A stretch of 64,000 bases of DNA from Thermococcus sp. MAR1 (GTDB taxonomy: Archaea > Methanobacteriota_B > Thermococci > Thermococcales > Thermococcaceae), in contig NZ_SNUF01000003.1 of assembly GCF_012027305.1 (NCBI RefSeq), positions 124,001 through 188,000 on the forward strand, written 5' to 3'. Below the pieces are notes generated by a model. The model was given only the letters and a program-made list of their open reading frames with translations. It was not told the origin of the DNA and made no database searches. Positions 57,417-64,000 of the stretch are shown here, piece after piece. The translations under genes were made by a program, and so were the position numbers. Each line of letters begins with the position of its first letter. The stretch's first letter is position 1.

Positions 57417-57494
57417 GGGCCGGTGGCCTAGTCAGGACAGGGCGTCGGCCTCCGGAGCCGAAGGTCGCGGGTTCAAATCCCGCCCGGCCCGCCA
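57417..57494 (+). tRNA. tRNA-Arg (CCG), with integrated-element junction
   Basis: The cloverleaf has acceptor GGGCCGG pairing with CCGGCCC, discriminator G, encoded CCA at 57492-57494, T arm GGTTCAAATCC and anticodon CCG at 57452-57454 in the loop CTCCGGA. It decodes CGG. A TATA-like TTTTTAAA (about 57383-57390) lies upstream. The 3' half is read antisense by an integrase-like fragment, so this tRNA is the probable attachment site of the mobile element that follows. Confidence 0.95.
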
Positions 57495-57638
57495 GAAATT
57501 TTGATTTTGTTGCGTTCCTGACATTATTGCCATATACAAAAGAGCTGCTGCCTCAAAAAATGCAGACTTCTGAATGTCGTTCTCATTCAAAAAAGCAATT
57601 ATTTGGTCGCTCACTGTGATACATATGCGCTTCCTCAA
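57432..57638 (-). pseudogene. N-terminal fragment of an SSV-type integrase, Int(N), overlapping the tRNA
   Basis: Reading the minus strand from TTG at 57638 (behind GGGGGTGAG), a 68-residue frame starts with a ribbon-helix-helix-like stretch (RICITVSDQIIAFLNENDIQ) and then reads through the tRNA 3' half as RAGRDLNPRP. SSV-type integrases carry their attachment site inside the gene, and after integration an N-terminal piece stays at one border; SSV1 Int has a similar tRNA-derived passage. No catalytic domain is present. The C-terminal fragment should lie at the other border, beyond the window. The tRNA-derived tail alone would be a translation artefact, so support rests on the first 50 residues. 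Confidence 0.55.
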
Positions 57639-57872
57639 AGTCCTCACCCCCAATGCGCAAAAATATCACAAAACTGATACTATTTTGGCCGACGGTCATA
57701 TTTATTTTTGCCTCTTACAAGCCTCCATCTCAAAAATTGACTGATACAAAGGCAAGTTTTATTTCGATGATGTGCAATAGCCGATGGTCACCTCGAGGTG
57801 GCCGCGTGAATAGCATCTTGCCATCATCCTGTGGCTACGTATGGCCGGGGGGCTATTGCCCCCCACCAGAAC
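57639..57872. other. Element left border, no gene seen
   Basis: AT-rich DNA then a structured part. It contains a perfect hairpin GGGGGGC-TATT-GCCCCCC (57847-57864), a near-palindrome GGTCACCTCGAGGTGGCC (about 57785-57802) and an inverted pair GCAATAGCC/GGCTATTGC (about 57774 and 57851) enclosing the palindrome. The hairpin lies just past the helicase stop and may end that transcript, though no T-run follows. No reading frame of interest. Confidence 0.4.
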
Positions 57873-59528
57873 TCAAAACCTCACGTACCCCAACACAGAC
57901 CTCTTTGACTTGCTCGTGAGAACATAAAGACTCTCTCTCGCACGAGTCATCGCAACGTAGAGAACCCTTACCTCTTCCTTCAGAGCATTCTCATCCCTTT
58001 GAATCTCTTTTTCGATCTTACGATTCACGAAATCAATGACAATGACAACATCGGCCTCTTCGCCCTTTGCGGCGTGCATCGTGTCCACGTAGATTATCTT
58101 TCCATTCCTCCTCTTTCTGAGCCCAGCCAAAACACGCTTCTCTTCCGGATCAAGGACATCAAGATAATGGTTCTCAATGAACCTCGCAAGGGATAGAACG
58201 TCATCAGAGCACTCTCCGGCTCCATTGTCTTCATTATTGGAGCTTTCCTCTCCAGTAAGGCATTCTTCGACCTTTATTATAGCATCTACAGGCGTTTTGA
58301 ACAGTGATCGAAGACGAATTCCTTCCTCATTCAGAGAAGTTACAGCGAAGAACAGCCTCAGCCCAATGCTCCTTTTCTCCTCGAAGGCGATGACTTCCTC
58401 AAGAAGGTCATAAAGACTGTCGTCATTCTTTATTCTTGAGACTCTGTATCCTGCCTCGATGATGTACTTTTCAATCTCTCTCGCTTGCTTGTTTGTTCGT
58501 GTAAGGACGAACACGGTCTTATCTTCATCCATAATGCTTTCAAGAATCTGAATTACTCTATCACCGGTTGTTCTGTCCATCTTGAGGAGATTGGACTTTT
58601 TCAGGTACTCTGTGATGGCCTTACCAGGTTCCTCACGTGGCTCATACTCGAAGTGGACCCCGAGCCACCGTGTGAGCATCTCCGCCTTGTTGTACACGTG
58701 CTTGGGTAGCCTATAACTTTTCTTCAATACAACAACTGTACCGGACGCCATAAAATTTGCAAACTCGGAAGGGTCAGCCCCCTGGAATGAATATATCGAC
58801 TGATTCGGGTCTCCAGCTGCAACGACATAGTCAAGGAGACCAATGCTTCTCAACCTCTTCACGACTGCCCATTGAAGAGGACTGAAGTCCTGAGCTTCGT
58901 CCATTATCATGACCCTGGGCTCACTGCCCTCCTTTTCTGGAGCGAGTGTAGCAGGAGTGGTTGTAAGGAAGTATCTGAGAACTGACGCATAGTCAAAAAT
59001 GCCCTTTTCTTCCTTCCATGCTACGTAGTCCCTTATTCTCTGGTACACGGCGTCTTTCTCCTGTTGTTTTACGATTTTGAGGATTTCATTGCTGTCTTTA
59101 TCATAATAGACGTTGAAATAGTAGTTGTACCTTATCTCGGCAACGTTCGACGGGTGTGAACTGAACCGATCCCTGAAGTCATAGCCATAGTTCATTTCCA
59201 TCATCGCGGCAATAAATGGCTCTCTCATGAATCCTGCGGGTGTGAGGAGTTTATTCCGCATAAGAACCCTTGTGATGTAACTATGCAGAGTGTACGCGTT
59301 GTAAATTCCTCTCTCTTTCAGAACCCTGACCGCAGAAGTTGTAAAGGTGAGAAAGAGAACCTCATCGCCCGTGTAATCCCTCCTCATGATGAGCTTGTTG
59401 AGGCCGTATCGTTGCACGAAGTTGGCAACGTCTTTGGAAACGTCTCCGGTAAAGTACTTGTAAAGATTGAAGAGAGCAGAGGTTTTTCCTGTCCCTGGAG
59501 GCCCCAGAATGGTTATCTGAGCGTTCAT
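57873..59528 (-). CDS. UvrD/Rep-like superfamily 1 DNA helicase
   Basis: 551 residues with the SF1A helicase motifs in order: [10 protein letters not shown] (residues about 8-16), II MIMDEAQDFS, III AAGDPNQSIYSFQGA, IV KKSYRLP, V DTMHAAKGEEADVV and VI LYVAMTRARE. UvrD-type helicases are rare in Thermococcales chromosomes but typical of their plasmids and integrated elements. The ATG overlaps the primase stop (ATGA). It is the last gene of the presumed replication operon. Confidence 0.85.
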   Translation of the reverse strand: MNAQITILGPPGTGKTSALFNLYKYFTGDVSKDVANFVQRYGLNKLIMRRDYTGDEVLFLTFTTSAVRVLKERGIYNAYTLHSYITRVLMRNKLLTPAGFMREPFIAAMMEMNYGYDFRDRFSSHPSNVAEIRYNYYFNVYYDKDSNEILKIVKQQEKDAVYQRIRDYVAWKEEKGIFDYASVLRYFLTTTPATLAPEKEGSEPRVMIMDEAQDFSPLQWAVVKRLRSIGLLDYVVAAGDPNQSIYSFQGADPSEFANFMASGTVVVLKKSYRLPKHVYNKAEMLTRWLGVHFEYEPREEPGKAITEYLKKSNLLKMDRTTGDRVIQILESIMDEDKTVFVLTRTNKQAREIEKYIIEAGYRVSRIKNDDSLYDLLEEVIAFEEKRSIGLRLFFAVTSLNEEGIRLRSLFKTPVDAIIKVEECLTGEESSNNEDNGAGECSDDVLSLARFIENHYLDVLDPEEKRVLAGLRKRRNGKIIYVDTMHAAKGEEADVVIVIDFVNRKIEKEIQRDENALKEEVRVLYVAMTRARESLYVLTSKSKRSVLGYVRF

Positions 59529-61534
59529 GCTGTAACACCCTTCTCGGCAATCTCATCAAGATCCAAGTACTCCTGTTCATTCAAGTACTCATCAATGGTC
59601 TTTATGGGAGGCTTTATGGCGTTCTCTTTCTCAAGGAAGTCAAAGAATCTGTCTGAAATCAGATAATAGAGGTATACATGCCTCCCATTCTTCAAAGATT
59701 TGCTCCGTCTGACTTCTCTCCAAGTTTTCTTGTCAATAATACCCATTCTGTGAAGGAACTTGGCAAGAGTTCTGGCGAATCCACGGGTGTCAGATCCGTA
59801 CTCGAGAAGGTGAGGATCGAAGTAGATTCTGTTCTCGTTTTCGGCGTAGATCATTATCCTCTTCCTGAACAGCTCATCTACACGGTCTCCGCTTATTGAA
59901 TTCAGCTCGTCGATTTTCACTATCCAAAAGACCTCAGTCTCGATGATATTCAGGAAACCATTCTTGACATCTTCGTACTCTTCTATTACAATCTCCTTTG
60001 CGTTTCTTGTAACGAATGCATAGTAATCCAGCATTATTTTGGCGAGAACGTCGTTGAACTTTCTCCTTTCCTGTTTGTTGAGATTCCTGATTGAAAGCGG
60101 ATCAACGATGTAAACCCCGAAATGAGCCATAAAGTCCTCGTTGAGGGAGTAGAACATCTTTTCCTTCTCTGTCCGCTCCTTGTTCTTGAGAACGATCGTC
60201 TCAACCTTTCCAGCTGTCTCCACGGTAAACGAGACCTTATATGTCACCTTACCGCTCCGTTCGTCCACTTCCTTGATTATATCGGAGGTGCGTTCGATAA
60301 GCCACTCAAGAAGGTCAAAATTATTGGAGAGAACTCTCCGAGCACTTGTTACAGAGTACTCACTTGGCTTATCCCCTGTTTTTCTCATTGCTCGCTGGTA
60401 GTAAGAGCGGAGTGCTCTGTTGAGCTCCCAGATGGTACCTTTCCCCAGATAGCTCTTGTAGTTCTTCAGCGTCGCCGAGTACGTATCCAGAACTGCTCTC
60501 TCCCGGTCCTCCCATGGATCACTATCCTGGGTCTCAATGTACACTCTTCTCACAACTTCGAGTGTATCCTCCACTGGAATCCCCCGGTGCCAGGCAAAGG
60601 CGGCAAATCCAAGGATGAGATTGTGCCTCCTGCCCGGCATGTAGTACTTTTTCAGGACTTCTACCAAGGCGTCTTTTTCCTCGCTGTTGAGCCTTATGTT
60701 GCCCCTATTCTCAATGTGAAGCTCTTCCTGCGTTGTGATCCCTTCCCGGAGCTTCTTCTCAATAAGTCCCTCAATTTCGAGCCTGTTTGTTCCAGAAACT
60801 TCAACTATCTTTGAAACGGACTCGTAGATTGTTCCAGCTATCTCACGCCTGTTCACGGTCCAAGCAACTCTCATAATGCGCGAGGGATTGTACACGCTCT
60901 TGTCTACGGCATTCTCGACGAGATAGACGTAGTTGGGGTCTATACTCTCTTTGAGAACCCTCTCAAACTCGTCTGCGAGTTCCCTCCCGACTTCCCGAAA
61001 AGCCGCCTGCCAGTTTCTGTCCCCAACCTCTACGGGATTTACCTTGAGATACACATGGAAGCCAAAGCCTGAGAAAACCAGCATGTACCTGAAGTTGTAC
61101 TTCCCAAACAGCTTCTGAACAGCTCTCTTTATCGCTTCCTTCACGGCTGATATCTCAACCCCAGAGGGGGCCCTATTGTGGAAGACATCCACATCAATTG
61201 GCAGGTTTATCACTTCAAGTATGTCATCGTTCGTAAAGGAACCCTCCTTCTGACCTCCCGCTGGATTTATCGTGACATATATACCCTTTATTCTGCTGTC
61301 CGAGTTCATTTCTCTGATGATGTAATTCGTAGCCCTTCCAATGTCCTTGATTCTGAACATCCTACGCTTTACGCTTTCATCCATCCCGAGAATTCTTATC
61401 TCGAACCAGTACTCTTGGTTCGTGTTCTCATAGAGAAACTCCAAGTATTTCTTTATCATGCCAGAAAGAGCTTCCCTGTTTTCGAGGATTGCCCTGTCTT
61501 CGTCGCTGATAAGACTGGCGTACTTCGGCATCAT
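59525..61534 (-). CDS. Archaeo-eukaryotic primase-polymerase of a mobile element
   Basis: 669 residues. The N-terminal part has the catalytic pattern of the archaeo-eukaryotic primase superfamily: D114 and D116 in PIDVDVFH, S155 and H160 in FSGFGFH, and D211 in VDKSVYNPSRIMR. The C-terminal half, of winged-helix or helical character, is not recognised. It resembles the primase-polymerases of Thermococcales plasmids such as pTN2, as I recall, and probably primes replication of the element with the downstream helicase. GGTGATGG precedes the start. A defence role cannot be excluded. Confidence 0.72.
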   Translation of the reverse strand: MMPKYASLISDEDRAILENREALSGMIKKYLEFLYENTNQEYWFEIRILGMDESVKRRMFRIKDIGRATNYIIREMNSDSRIKGIYVTINPAGGQKEGSFTNDDILEVINLPIDVDVFHNRAPSGVEISAVKEAIKRAVQKLFGKYNFRYMLVFSGFGFHVYLKVNPVEVGDRNWQAAFREVGRELADEFERVLKESIDPNYVYLVENAVDKSVYNPSRIMRVAWTVNRREIAGTIYESVSKIVEVSGTNRLEIEGLIEKKLREGITTQEELHIENRGNIRLNSEEKDALVEVLKKYYMPGRRHNLILGFAAFAWHRGIPVEDTLEVVRRVYIETQDSDPWEDRERAVLDTYSATLKNYKSYLGKGTIWELNRALRSYYQRAMRKTGDKPSEYSVTSARRVLSNNFDLLEWLIERTSDIIKEVDERSGKVTYKVSFTVETAGKVETIVLKNKERTEKEKMFYSLNEDFMAHFGVYIVDPLSIRNLNKQERRKFNDVLAKIMLDYYAFVTRNAKEIVIEEYEDVKNGFLNIIETEVFWIVKIDELNSISGDRVDELFRKRIMIYAENENRIYFDPHLLEYGSDTRGFARTLAKFLHRMGIIDKKTWREVRRSKSLKNGRHVYLYYLISDRFFDFLEKENAIKPPIKTIDEYLNEQEYLDLDEIAEKGVTA

Positions 61535-61989
61535 TGCCCATCACCCCTGAGAAGCCTCTGAATCTCTTCTACATGCCATGCAAGGTGCTTTTTGTCCCAT
61601 TCCGTAAGTCCATCTTCCCTCATTATCCTATGGATGGCTATTGAGACATAGTTGAGAGAAGCGACAAGATCTTCATGATTGTTGTAGAACTCCCTCACAA
61701 CATCGCCCACGATTGCATCTACGGCCTTTATGTACTCCCGTATCCCCTTTGGATTGTCCGTACGAACCGGAAAGACTGCCTTGAAGGAGAATTCTTCTTC
61801 TGTTTCCTTGAGAAACCTTATCCTCTCCTTGTCTTTCAAATCAAGGCCCCAATAGGTTATGTCATCAATAGTGATCTCACCACGGGCTATCTTTTTTGCC
61901 AGCTCTACCTGGGTAGTCATAAACCTCTTTGAAGCCCTTCTGAGAAGGTACTTTGTGGATGCAGGTATGTACAGATTGTACCTACCCAT
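61531..61989 (-). CDS. Element operon leader gene, unknown function
   Basis: 152 residues, largely helical, no recognised family. The N-terminus (RYNLYIPASTKYLLRRASKRF) resembles a basic DNA-binding start, and the C-terminal half could be a helical bundle. It is the first gene of the 152-aa protein - primase - helicase operon and overlaps the primase by 4 bp. Given the palindrome in its promoter, it could encode the local repressor or a replication accessory. GAGGTGAAATC precedes its ATG. Confidence 0.6.
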   Translation of the reverse strand: MGRYNLYIPASTKYLLRRASKRFMTTQVELAKKIARGEITIDDITYWGLDLKDKERIRFLKETEEEFSFKAVFPVRTDNPKGIREYIKAVDAIVGDVVREFYNNHEDLVASLNYVSIAIHRIMREDGLTEWDKKHLAWHVEEIQRLLRGDGQ

Positions 61990-62254: not shown

Positions 62255-64000
62255 TTACTCCTTCCCAAGTTCCTCAACGTCAATACCCAGCTGTCTGAAC
62301 GTCTCAAGCAGATTCTCATACTCCATCGGGCTCATGTTCCCATTCTCCGCCTTTATCTCGATGGTAACTCTCTCAAACTTGCTCTTCAGCAGGTTCAACG
62401 CCCTCAATATGTCCCTCAGCCCTCCAGTTCCGGGCCCCAGTGTCAGGTGCAGGTGAATGGACTCTACCTGGCTTTCCACAACTTCTTTTCTTCCCTCTGT
62501 TTCCGAGGGCACAAGCATGGCCTGCTTGTCCCTGACTGCTGGAGGCTTCCATTCCTCCTCAGGAGCTCCAGCTACGCTCTCAGCTGTAGCTTTTTCTTGA
62601 GCTATAGCTTGAGCTTCTGCCTCAGCTTCAGCCTTTGCTCTCTCCCTCAGCTCTTCGCAGTACTTCCTGTTCACGATGACCTCTTTCTCGTCAAGGGTAA
62701 CCGTAGGCCTTTCACCAAGGTACTCGCAGGTTACCTCCTCTCCCGTGAGGTACCCCAATCCAAAGCGCCCCTCGCTTACCCCCTGCCGTATCGCGTCTAT
62801 AAGCACGCTCTTACTCTTCAAGAGTGGCATCCCCGGGGTCTTGAGGAAGCTCTCGTAGAGTGCCTTCGTTGGGATATACCCCTTCCCGTCCAAGTATTTC
62901 ATCTCGATGACCACTGGAGCCATCTTCTCGACGAGCTTACCCTCTTCTCTGAGCTTCTCGTAGACGAGCTCCTCGATGGTCTTCTTGATGCCCACGGGCT
63001 TCATGCCGAGGTCAAGCTCTTCGTAGCCGCCACGAGTGGGAAGCAGTACGAGCCTGTAAAGCTCTGCTATCTTCTGAACGATGTCTTCTCTTGCCCGCTT
63101 CAAATTCTCCTTCACGTCATCCTTTTGCTCTGAAGTGAGCTCCAGAGAACCCTTCTTTGCCTTCTCGTCGATGGTCTTCCATGCAATATACCTCCTCACG
63201 AGCCTGTTGAAACTGGCCCTCTCCGTCTCCCTTGGAACGAGGAAGATGAGGGTGTTCTTGTGAACCCTCTCGCTACCGCCGTAAGATTGCAGAATCTGGA
63301 GAACCTTCTCCTTGTCATACTCAGGAAGAACAACGAGCTTCAAGCTTGGATCGCTATCAGGAACGTCCACCGGTTTACTCGGCCACAGATAGACCTTGAA
63401 GTATCTGCCCTTGAGCTGACCCTTCAGCAGTTCGTGCTCAACATCCCTTATCTGTTCCTCGCTCACGTTGTTCATCTCGTCCACAACGAGCTTGTTGAGG
63501 CTTGGCTCAAGGCTGAAGAAGTACCGACCATCGCGGTAGTGAAGGTAGAGCAGATTGTCTTTGAGGTAGAGGATGGCGTCTCCCACTATACTACTCGAGT
63601 ACCTTGTATCGGCACAGGAGAGCTTTATTTCCTTCGTGGTGGCTCCCTTCACGTCTCCGCCTGAGAAGGAGTACATGAAGATGACAGTGGCCGCTCTCGT
63701 CCCCACGCGATAGTGCTCGTAGGATTCTCCGACCATCCTGTCAACCCGCTTTGCGCCGGAGTTGGGCGAGAGAATGTCCGCATCAAGGACGGAATAGTAC
63801 CTGCTCTCCCCTATGATGTCTATGAGCTCGTCCCTGAGCGTCTTGACACTCAAGTCGAAGTCAGATAGCCTGATGAAGGATACATCCCTTCCGATGAGCG
63901 AGTGGACCACTATTGAGAGAAGCCTCAGCACACCCCTTGTTCTCTGGAACTTCGGCAGACTACCCCAGCGGTGGTAGAGAACGTCAATGACCTCCGGCTG
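62255..64000 (-). CDS. DUF499 family ATPase, 5' part beyond the window
   Basis: The frame is open to base 64000, so the start of the gene is missing; 582 residues are visible. The part nearest the edge, LYHRWGSLPKFQRTRGVLRLLS, is characteristic of DUF499 proteins, which are about 1000 residues with an N-terminal P-loop ATPase not seen here. A low-complexity Ala/Glu linker (about 62570-62650) precedes a C-terminal domain (ESIHLHLTLGPGTGGLRD). DUF499 genes are known from defence islands beside DUF1156 DNA methylases. The neighbour just outside the window would decide this. Confidence 0.72.
   Translation of the reverse strand, partial: QPEVIDVLYHRWGSLPKFQRTRGVLRLLSIVVHSLIGRDVSFIRLSDFDLSVKTLRDELIDIIGESRYYSVLDADILSPNSGAKRVDRMVGESYEHYRVGTRAATVIFMYSFSGGDVKGATTKEIKLSCADTRYSSSIVGDAILYLKDNLLYLHYRDGRYFFSLEPSLNKLVVDEMNNVSEEQIRDVEHELLKGQLKGRYFKVYLWPSKPVDVPDSDPSLKLVVLPEYDKEKVLQILQSYGGSERVHKNTLIFLVPRETERASFNRLVRRYIAWKTIDEKAKKGSLELTSEQKDDVKENLKRAREDIVQKIAELYRLVLLPTRGGYEELDLGMKPVGIKKTIEELVYEKLREEGKLVEKMAPVVIEMKYLDGKGYIPTKALYESFLKTPGMPLLKSKSVLIDAIRQGVSEGRFGLGYLTGEEVTCEYLGERPTVTLDEKEVIVNRKYCEELRERAKAEAEAEAQAIAQEKATAESVAGAPEEEWKPPAVRDKQAMLVPSETEGRKEVVESQVESIHLHLTLGPGTGGLRDILRALNLLKSKFERVTIEIKAENGNMSPMEYENLLETFRQLGIDVEELGKE

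Follow-up and report, generated by a model that had tools for sequence, protein, structure and literature searches.

Described systems related to the locus

The Hma system consists of the HmaA helicase, the HmaB methylase and the HmaC ATPase (Payne 2021, PMC8565338). It has since been renamed the Type-1 DUF499-centred BREX-related (BR) system, with DUF3780 and PglZ as the markers of BR Types 2 and 3, respectively; anti-phage action has been reported for a helicase of the family, and the DUF499 systems are homologous to BrxC, BrxX and BrxHII (PMC12839542). That Hma can harbour additional defence genes between its own is already known as well (HEC/PDC, preprint 10.1101/2024.01.29.577857, as far as it is cited in PMC12988326).

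An Hma cluster at the edge of the window

The DNA analysed here, referred to as the window, is a stretch of 64,000 nucleotides from Thermococcus sp. MAR1, positions 124001-188000 of a contig of 200,957 bases (G000:C3, G000 being the label of this host genome in the genome comparisons). The contig extends 12.9 kb beyond the window, and coordinates there continue those of the window (contig position minus 124000). A first-pass annotation had read the gene at this edge as a DUF499 ATPase, possibly the defence cargo of a mobile element and the partner of a DUF1156 methylase. Inside the window the gene runs from 62255 to 64000 (minus strand) and is open at the edge, comprising the C-terminal 581 of 904 aa. 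The complete gene and its two partners are as follows:

62255-64969, minus strand: hmaC, DUF499 AAA+ ATPase (profile matches, intact motifs)
67579-70368, minus strand: hmaB, 929-aa DUF1156 adenine methylase (DUF1156 1.8e-23; PADLOC HmaB 3.8e-140)
70817-74119, minus strand: hmaA, SNF2 helicase of 1100 aa carrying NOV_C at its C-terminus (NOV_C 5.3e-22; PADLOC HmaA 7.4e-193)

The start of hmaC is a TTG at 64969, with ATG codons at 64960 and 64957. The check that the first-pass annotation had proposed, a DUF499 profile search with the full protein, gave 141.7 bits in Pfam against a cut-off of 23 (E=3e-41); the ATPase and its DUF1156 partner were both borne out. Full-length HmaC also matches the PADLOC HmaC model (E=2e-131) and NCBIfam DUF499_antiphage (3e-52, yet far under that model's equivalog cut-off), and its Walker motifs, GGGKT (A) and VDE (B), are intact. 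A near relative with 93% identity across the full protein is found in a metagenome-assembled Thermococcus; there is no relative in phage records and no close relative in viral contigs. With regard to the RRM/ferredoxin-like domain at the C-terminus of Type-1 BR ATPases, a single-sequence model of this end gave β-α-β-α-β (pLDDT 70), and no PDB entry matched it below E 0.001.

Each of the three proteins is matched across most of its length by its PADLOC Hma model, and the three genes form one cluster. HmaB combines the DUF1156 N-terminus with the N6-type methylase motifs FxGxG (FAGGG) and DPPY and with zinc-binding cysteines. HmaA carries a DEAH helicase motif, and its NOV_C domain, judged from the domain and the motif residues E, GYD and EVK, is a predicted PD-(D/E)XK nuclease. 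As in Type-1 BR systems (PMC12839542), an ATPase and a DUF1156 methylase thus stand with an SNF2 helicase that has a C-terminal PD-(D/E)XK-type domain, in the absence of DUF3780 and PglZ; the HEPN fusion on the ATPase, in contrast, was not found here. The arrangement differs from that of the original Hma (PMC8565338) in that hmaC is split from hmaAB by two opposite-strand genes, more genes are embedded, and the system is borne by an archaeal element with an SSV-type integrase.

Neither DUF3780 nor an HKD nuclease at the helicase N-terminus is among the Pfam matches of the cluster genes, and a Type-2 BR system was rejected on these grounds. Type 3 was rejected because no gene of the cluster matches PglZ in the Pfam and PADLOC profiles. 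HmaA also matches the BrxH and DrmD profiles, and DISARM, in which DrmA, DrmB and DrmC accompany such a helicase, was rejected since the DrmD-like helicase alone is present and scores higher as HmaA (641 vs 453 bits). By its sequence, then, HmaABC is a complete, intact and already described antiviral system of restriction-modification-like type, Hma, alias the Type-1 DUF499-centred BREX-related system.

The ATP-binding, methyl-transfer, helicase and nuclease motifs are intact in all nine loci compared (the host and eight related ones). This bears on a BREX-like reading, in which methylation would mark self, HmaC and HmaA would stall phage replication without cleaving DNA, and NOV_C would be structural. 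The homology of the DUF499 systems to BREX components (PMC12839542) and the BrxH and DrmD matches of HmaA speak for it; the E, GYD and EVK residues, kept in nine of nine HmaA copies, would not be required of a purely structural domain, and we regard such a block as distinctly improbable.

The integrated element

The Hma system occupies most of a 19.3-kb element, whose remaining parts were identified as follows:

57417-57494, plus strand: tRNA-Arg(CCG); its 3′ 48 bp (57447-57494) constitute the left element border, attL
57495-57653, minus strand: IntN, N-terminal part of a split SSV-type integrase, running out to the left att
57873-59528, minus strand: UvrD-family SF1 helicase of the replication module (Pfam 5.2e-21; 27% identity to the pIRI48 helicase)
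59525-61534, minus strand: AEP-like primase of the replication module (weak pIRI48 similarity; DxD and SGxGxH motifs)
61531-61989, minus strand: 152-aa protein, overlapping the start of the primase gene and kept in four sister elements
74237-74992, plus strand: small serine recombinase, divergent from hmaA
76001-76780, minus strand: IntC, C-terminal piece of the integrase, starting at the right att (Phage_integr_3 2.1e-24)
76781-76828 (contig 200781-200828): attR

The 48-bp copies of the tRNA-Arg(CCG) 3′ end at the two borders lie 19,334 bp apart. With its integrase split by att and the 3′ end of the tRNA gene repeated at the other border, the element is of the SSV integrative type, and IntN and IntC would be joined through att in the excised circle. 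The empty site, with the flanks joined and unbroken, is present in two relatives, G014 and G071, to which the left flank is identical at 220/268 and 247/275 positions and the right flank at 130/130 and 129/130, respectively. The 130 bp after attR, at the contig end, are near-identical in these genomes although the left flank is 82-90% identical, possibly reflecting a mobile hairpin or a recent exchange.

The adjacent SF1 helicase and primase genes are reminiscent of Thermococcus plasmids that belong to the pTN2 family, such as pIRI48 (PMC3543421). The pair is only 27-28% identical to that of pIRI48, which has no Hma gene, and the present element, unlike pIRI48, is integrated and has an SSV-type integrase. 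Neither Pfam nor NCBIfam gave a match for the primase, which is called AEP-like from its DxD and SGxGxH motifs and its weak similarity to the pIRI48 protein. No clear inverted repeats that would suggest a DNA-inversion role for the serine recombinase were seen around Hma.

The first-pass annotation had placed the ATPase on a mobile element next to an AEP primase and a UvrD helicase. The att repeat, the split integrase and the empty sites agree with the first of these statements, and the helicase is confirmed by its Pfam match (5e-21); the AEP assignment holds to the extent of motifs and weak similarity. Upstream lie the Hma genes instead of the ordinary partition or conjugation genes that had been named as the contrary outcome. 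An intact Hma system on an integrated element makes defence cargo the predicted function, as had been proposed, and cargo of a known kind. The idea of an uncharacterised system has to be given up, Hma (Type-1 BR) being already described, and so has the suggestion of a DUF3780-type protein among the neighbours, none being found in the cluster with Pfam. Hma is carried into hot-vent archaea by a 19-kb integrated element.

Distribution in the Thermococcaceae

A close copy of Hma (HmaC identity at least 82%) is present in 9/94 Thermococcaceae genomes, the host included, and any DUF499 relative in 25/94. Perfect repeats of 44-55 bp, 17.6-21.9 kb apart, flank seven of the nine loci; of the other two, that of G059 is cut by a contig end, and no repeat was found for G072. 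The Hma elements sit in at least three different tRNA genes, several of them at tRNA-Arg(CCG). Sites with a called border tRNA gene are tRNA-Arg(CCG) and tRNA-Ile(GAT), and tRNA-Arg(GCG) in G041 and tRNA-Val(GAC) in G011 were assigned by position. Since the element backbone is unlike between some of the loci, the system moves between element types.

Seven loci are carried by integrative elements whose ends can be demonstrated, and several of these use tRNA-Arg(CCG) in common. This would also be expected if Hma served mainly in the exclusion of other elements, so that the modified element and host are tolerated and competing plasmids or elements are restricted, rather than being chiefly antiviral. 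Exclusion as the main role seems unlikely to us; a restriction system would also hit viruses, so the two roles are not mutually exclusive.

A second, distant type of DUF499/DUF1156 system (~25-30% identical, with an ATPase frame of ~1100 aa) is common in the Thermococcaceae, and G059 and G067 harbour both types.

Swapped segments in HmaB

Between the loci, the DNA of hmaB keeps 80-94% identity outside the variable segments. At residues 441-520, by contrast, most locus pairs agree in only 27-46% of amino acids and 41-53% of nucleotides. Residues 361-400 and 581-600 vary independently, and at least five HmaB alleles are present among the nine loci. HmaA and HmaC are ~93-97% identical in the closest loci. 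In the host and G023, for instance, HmaB is identical at 361-400 and 30% identical at 441-520, with HmaA and HmaC ~96% identical.

These patterns show that target-recognition segments in HmaB are swapped between loci, which is apparently a new detail. Because the segments change while HmaA and HmaC change little, it is probably HmaB alone that sets the specificity, with HmaA and HmaC following, in the manner of systems whose recognition domains can be exchanged. Shuffling of the methylase by phase variation was considered and rejected: there is no second (silent) copy of the HmaB segments in the host genome, nor are there convincing inverted repeats around the Hma locus, and the swaps therefore most likely arose by recombination between elements. 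A complete Hma with natural swaps of recognition segments is available in archaea among which there are genetically tractable laboratory species, and the target of Hma and the subunit that sets its specificity become open to testing via the methylomes of the carriers.

A candidate toxin-antitoxin pair between hmaB and hmaC

Two overlapping genes lie on the strand opposite to the Hma genes:

66147-66905, plus strand: o252, 252 aa, between hmaB and hmaC
66875-67573, plus strand: PIN232, 232 aa, with a PIN match, overlapping the upstream o252 and beside the hmaB stop

A putative PIN-domain toxin whose gene overlaps that of a partner lying upstream recalls VapBC. The partner, in contrast, is 252 aa long and without a match to a known antitoxin family in Pfam or NCBIfam, and the PIN protein is longer than the usual VapC. 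Membership in VapBC was rejected, PIN232 reaching 21.2 bits against Pfam PIN, just under the cut-off of 23.6, and o252 having no VapB-type antitoxin match. A match of o252 to DUF155 was below cut-off, and a similarity of PIN232 to KwaB was judged spurious at 18-19 bits. The structure model of o252 was too poor for use (pLDDT 47).

The comparison of the loci was more informative. In the hmaB-hmaC gap the pair is intact in five loci, o252 stands alone in two, and the PIN gene is broken in one. Overall, an intact PIN gene is accompanied by an intact o252 in 8/8 cases, o252 occurs twice without PIN, and PIN without o252 once, in broken form. This is, in small numbers, the polarity expected of a toxin and its antitoxin. 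In G019 the C-terminus of o252 runs into the final residues of PIN, apparently left over from a deletion. Distant o252-like genes directly precede a PemK/MazF-like gene (PF02452 7e-13) in three more inspected loci; such arrangements were seen in other genomes of the same genus at L119:5429-6564, L120:5519-6647 and L121:605-1724. Gene order, overlap, the polarity of loss in a few loci, the swapping of partners and the PIN match make o252/PIN232 a likely toxin-antitoxin pair. It is apparently a new detail too, o252 being likely a candidate antitoxin that no family library names.

The pair might instead serve Hma specifically, as an accessory effector or as a regulator. Seven of nine loci have it in the hmaB-hmaC gap, two of them with o252 only, and its position next to the hmaB stop is fixed; the same pair also occurs without Hma nearby in three genomes (G093:C19, G041:C1 and G008), and two Hma loci are altogether without an intact pair, which leaves this explanation rather unlikely. 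Returning to the toxin-antitoxin reading, a wider proposal makes o252 the founder of an archaeal antitoxin family of ~240 aa, so far without a name, that can neutralise unrelated toxins (PIN RNases or MazF-like proteins). Embedded in the Hma systems of mobile elements, it would have been recruited for backup or addiction, alongside cassettes that are exchangeable (o361, TM151, the membrane-anchored Holliday-resolvase-like nuclease and archaeal ATPases). We offer it tentatively, as a real possibility that falls somewhat short of an even chance. The newest parts are this antitoxin-like family, which has no name yet, and the swaps in HmaB; the defence system itself is of a known kind.

Proposed course of restriction

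Taking gene content, catalytic motifs, element ends, empty sites, recurrent carriage and the HmaB swaps together, we consider it probable that the locus as a whole is an intact Hma on an element that has an SSV-type integrase and a pTN2-like replication module, acting by methylation-guided restriction, with o252/PIN as its addiction or backup module. From motifs and domains we infer that HmaB would methylate adenine at a site read by its own variable segments, so that host and element DNA are marked as self; the HmaC ATPase would assemble with HmaB and scan incoming DNA, and HmaA would travel along unmodified DNA and cut it via its C-terminal PD-(D/E)XK nuclease. The element would thereby shield the host and its own niche from viruses and rival elements. 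The PIN RNase toxin, with o252 as the antitoxin, would most likely punish loss of the element or back up failed restriction.

Other embedded genes

Two further genes are embedded on the minus strand:

64950-66035, minus strand: o361, between hmaC and o252
70349-70804, minus strand: TM151, 151-aa membrane protein, between hmaB and hmaA

Like the Hma-embedded candidates (HEC/PDC, as far as their source is cited), these extra genes lie between the core genes of Hma and differ from locus to locus. They represent concrete defence candidates. In contrast to those candidates, none of the four proteins (o252, PIN232, o361, TM151) has a match among the HEC and PDC models of PADLOC at E<=0.01, so that PIN232 is not PDC-S70 by these models; o252, PIN232 and o361 have no close relative in viral contigs.

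The hmaA-hmaB gap is empty in four loci, holds the 151-aa membrane protein in two, and in three a nuclease of 184 aa that is anchored in the membrane and akin to Holliday-junction resolvases (Endonuc_Holl 1.1e-50). The hmaB-hmaC gap also holds o361 in five loci, one copy being broken, and archaeal ATPases (L039:13990-15111, L044:12485-13633). The archaeal ATPase of G019 has a PF01637 match and a weak one to the defence candidate PDC-S27 (4e-10). In o361, nine N-glycosylation sequons were counted compared with ~3 expected by shuffling (P ~0.0025), and three full-length orthologues have eight or nine each. A membrane-anchored domain on the outside of the cell is predicted for o361, and such an extracytoplasmic protein is odd in a DNA-restriction operon.
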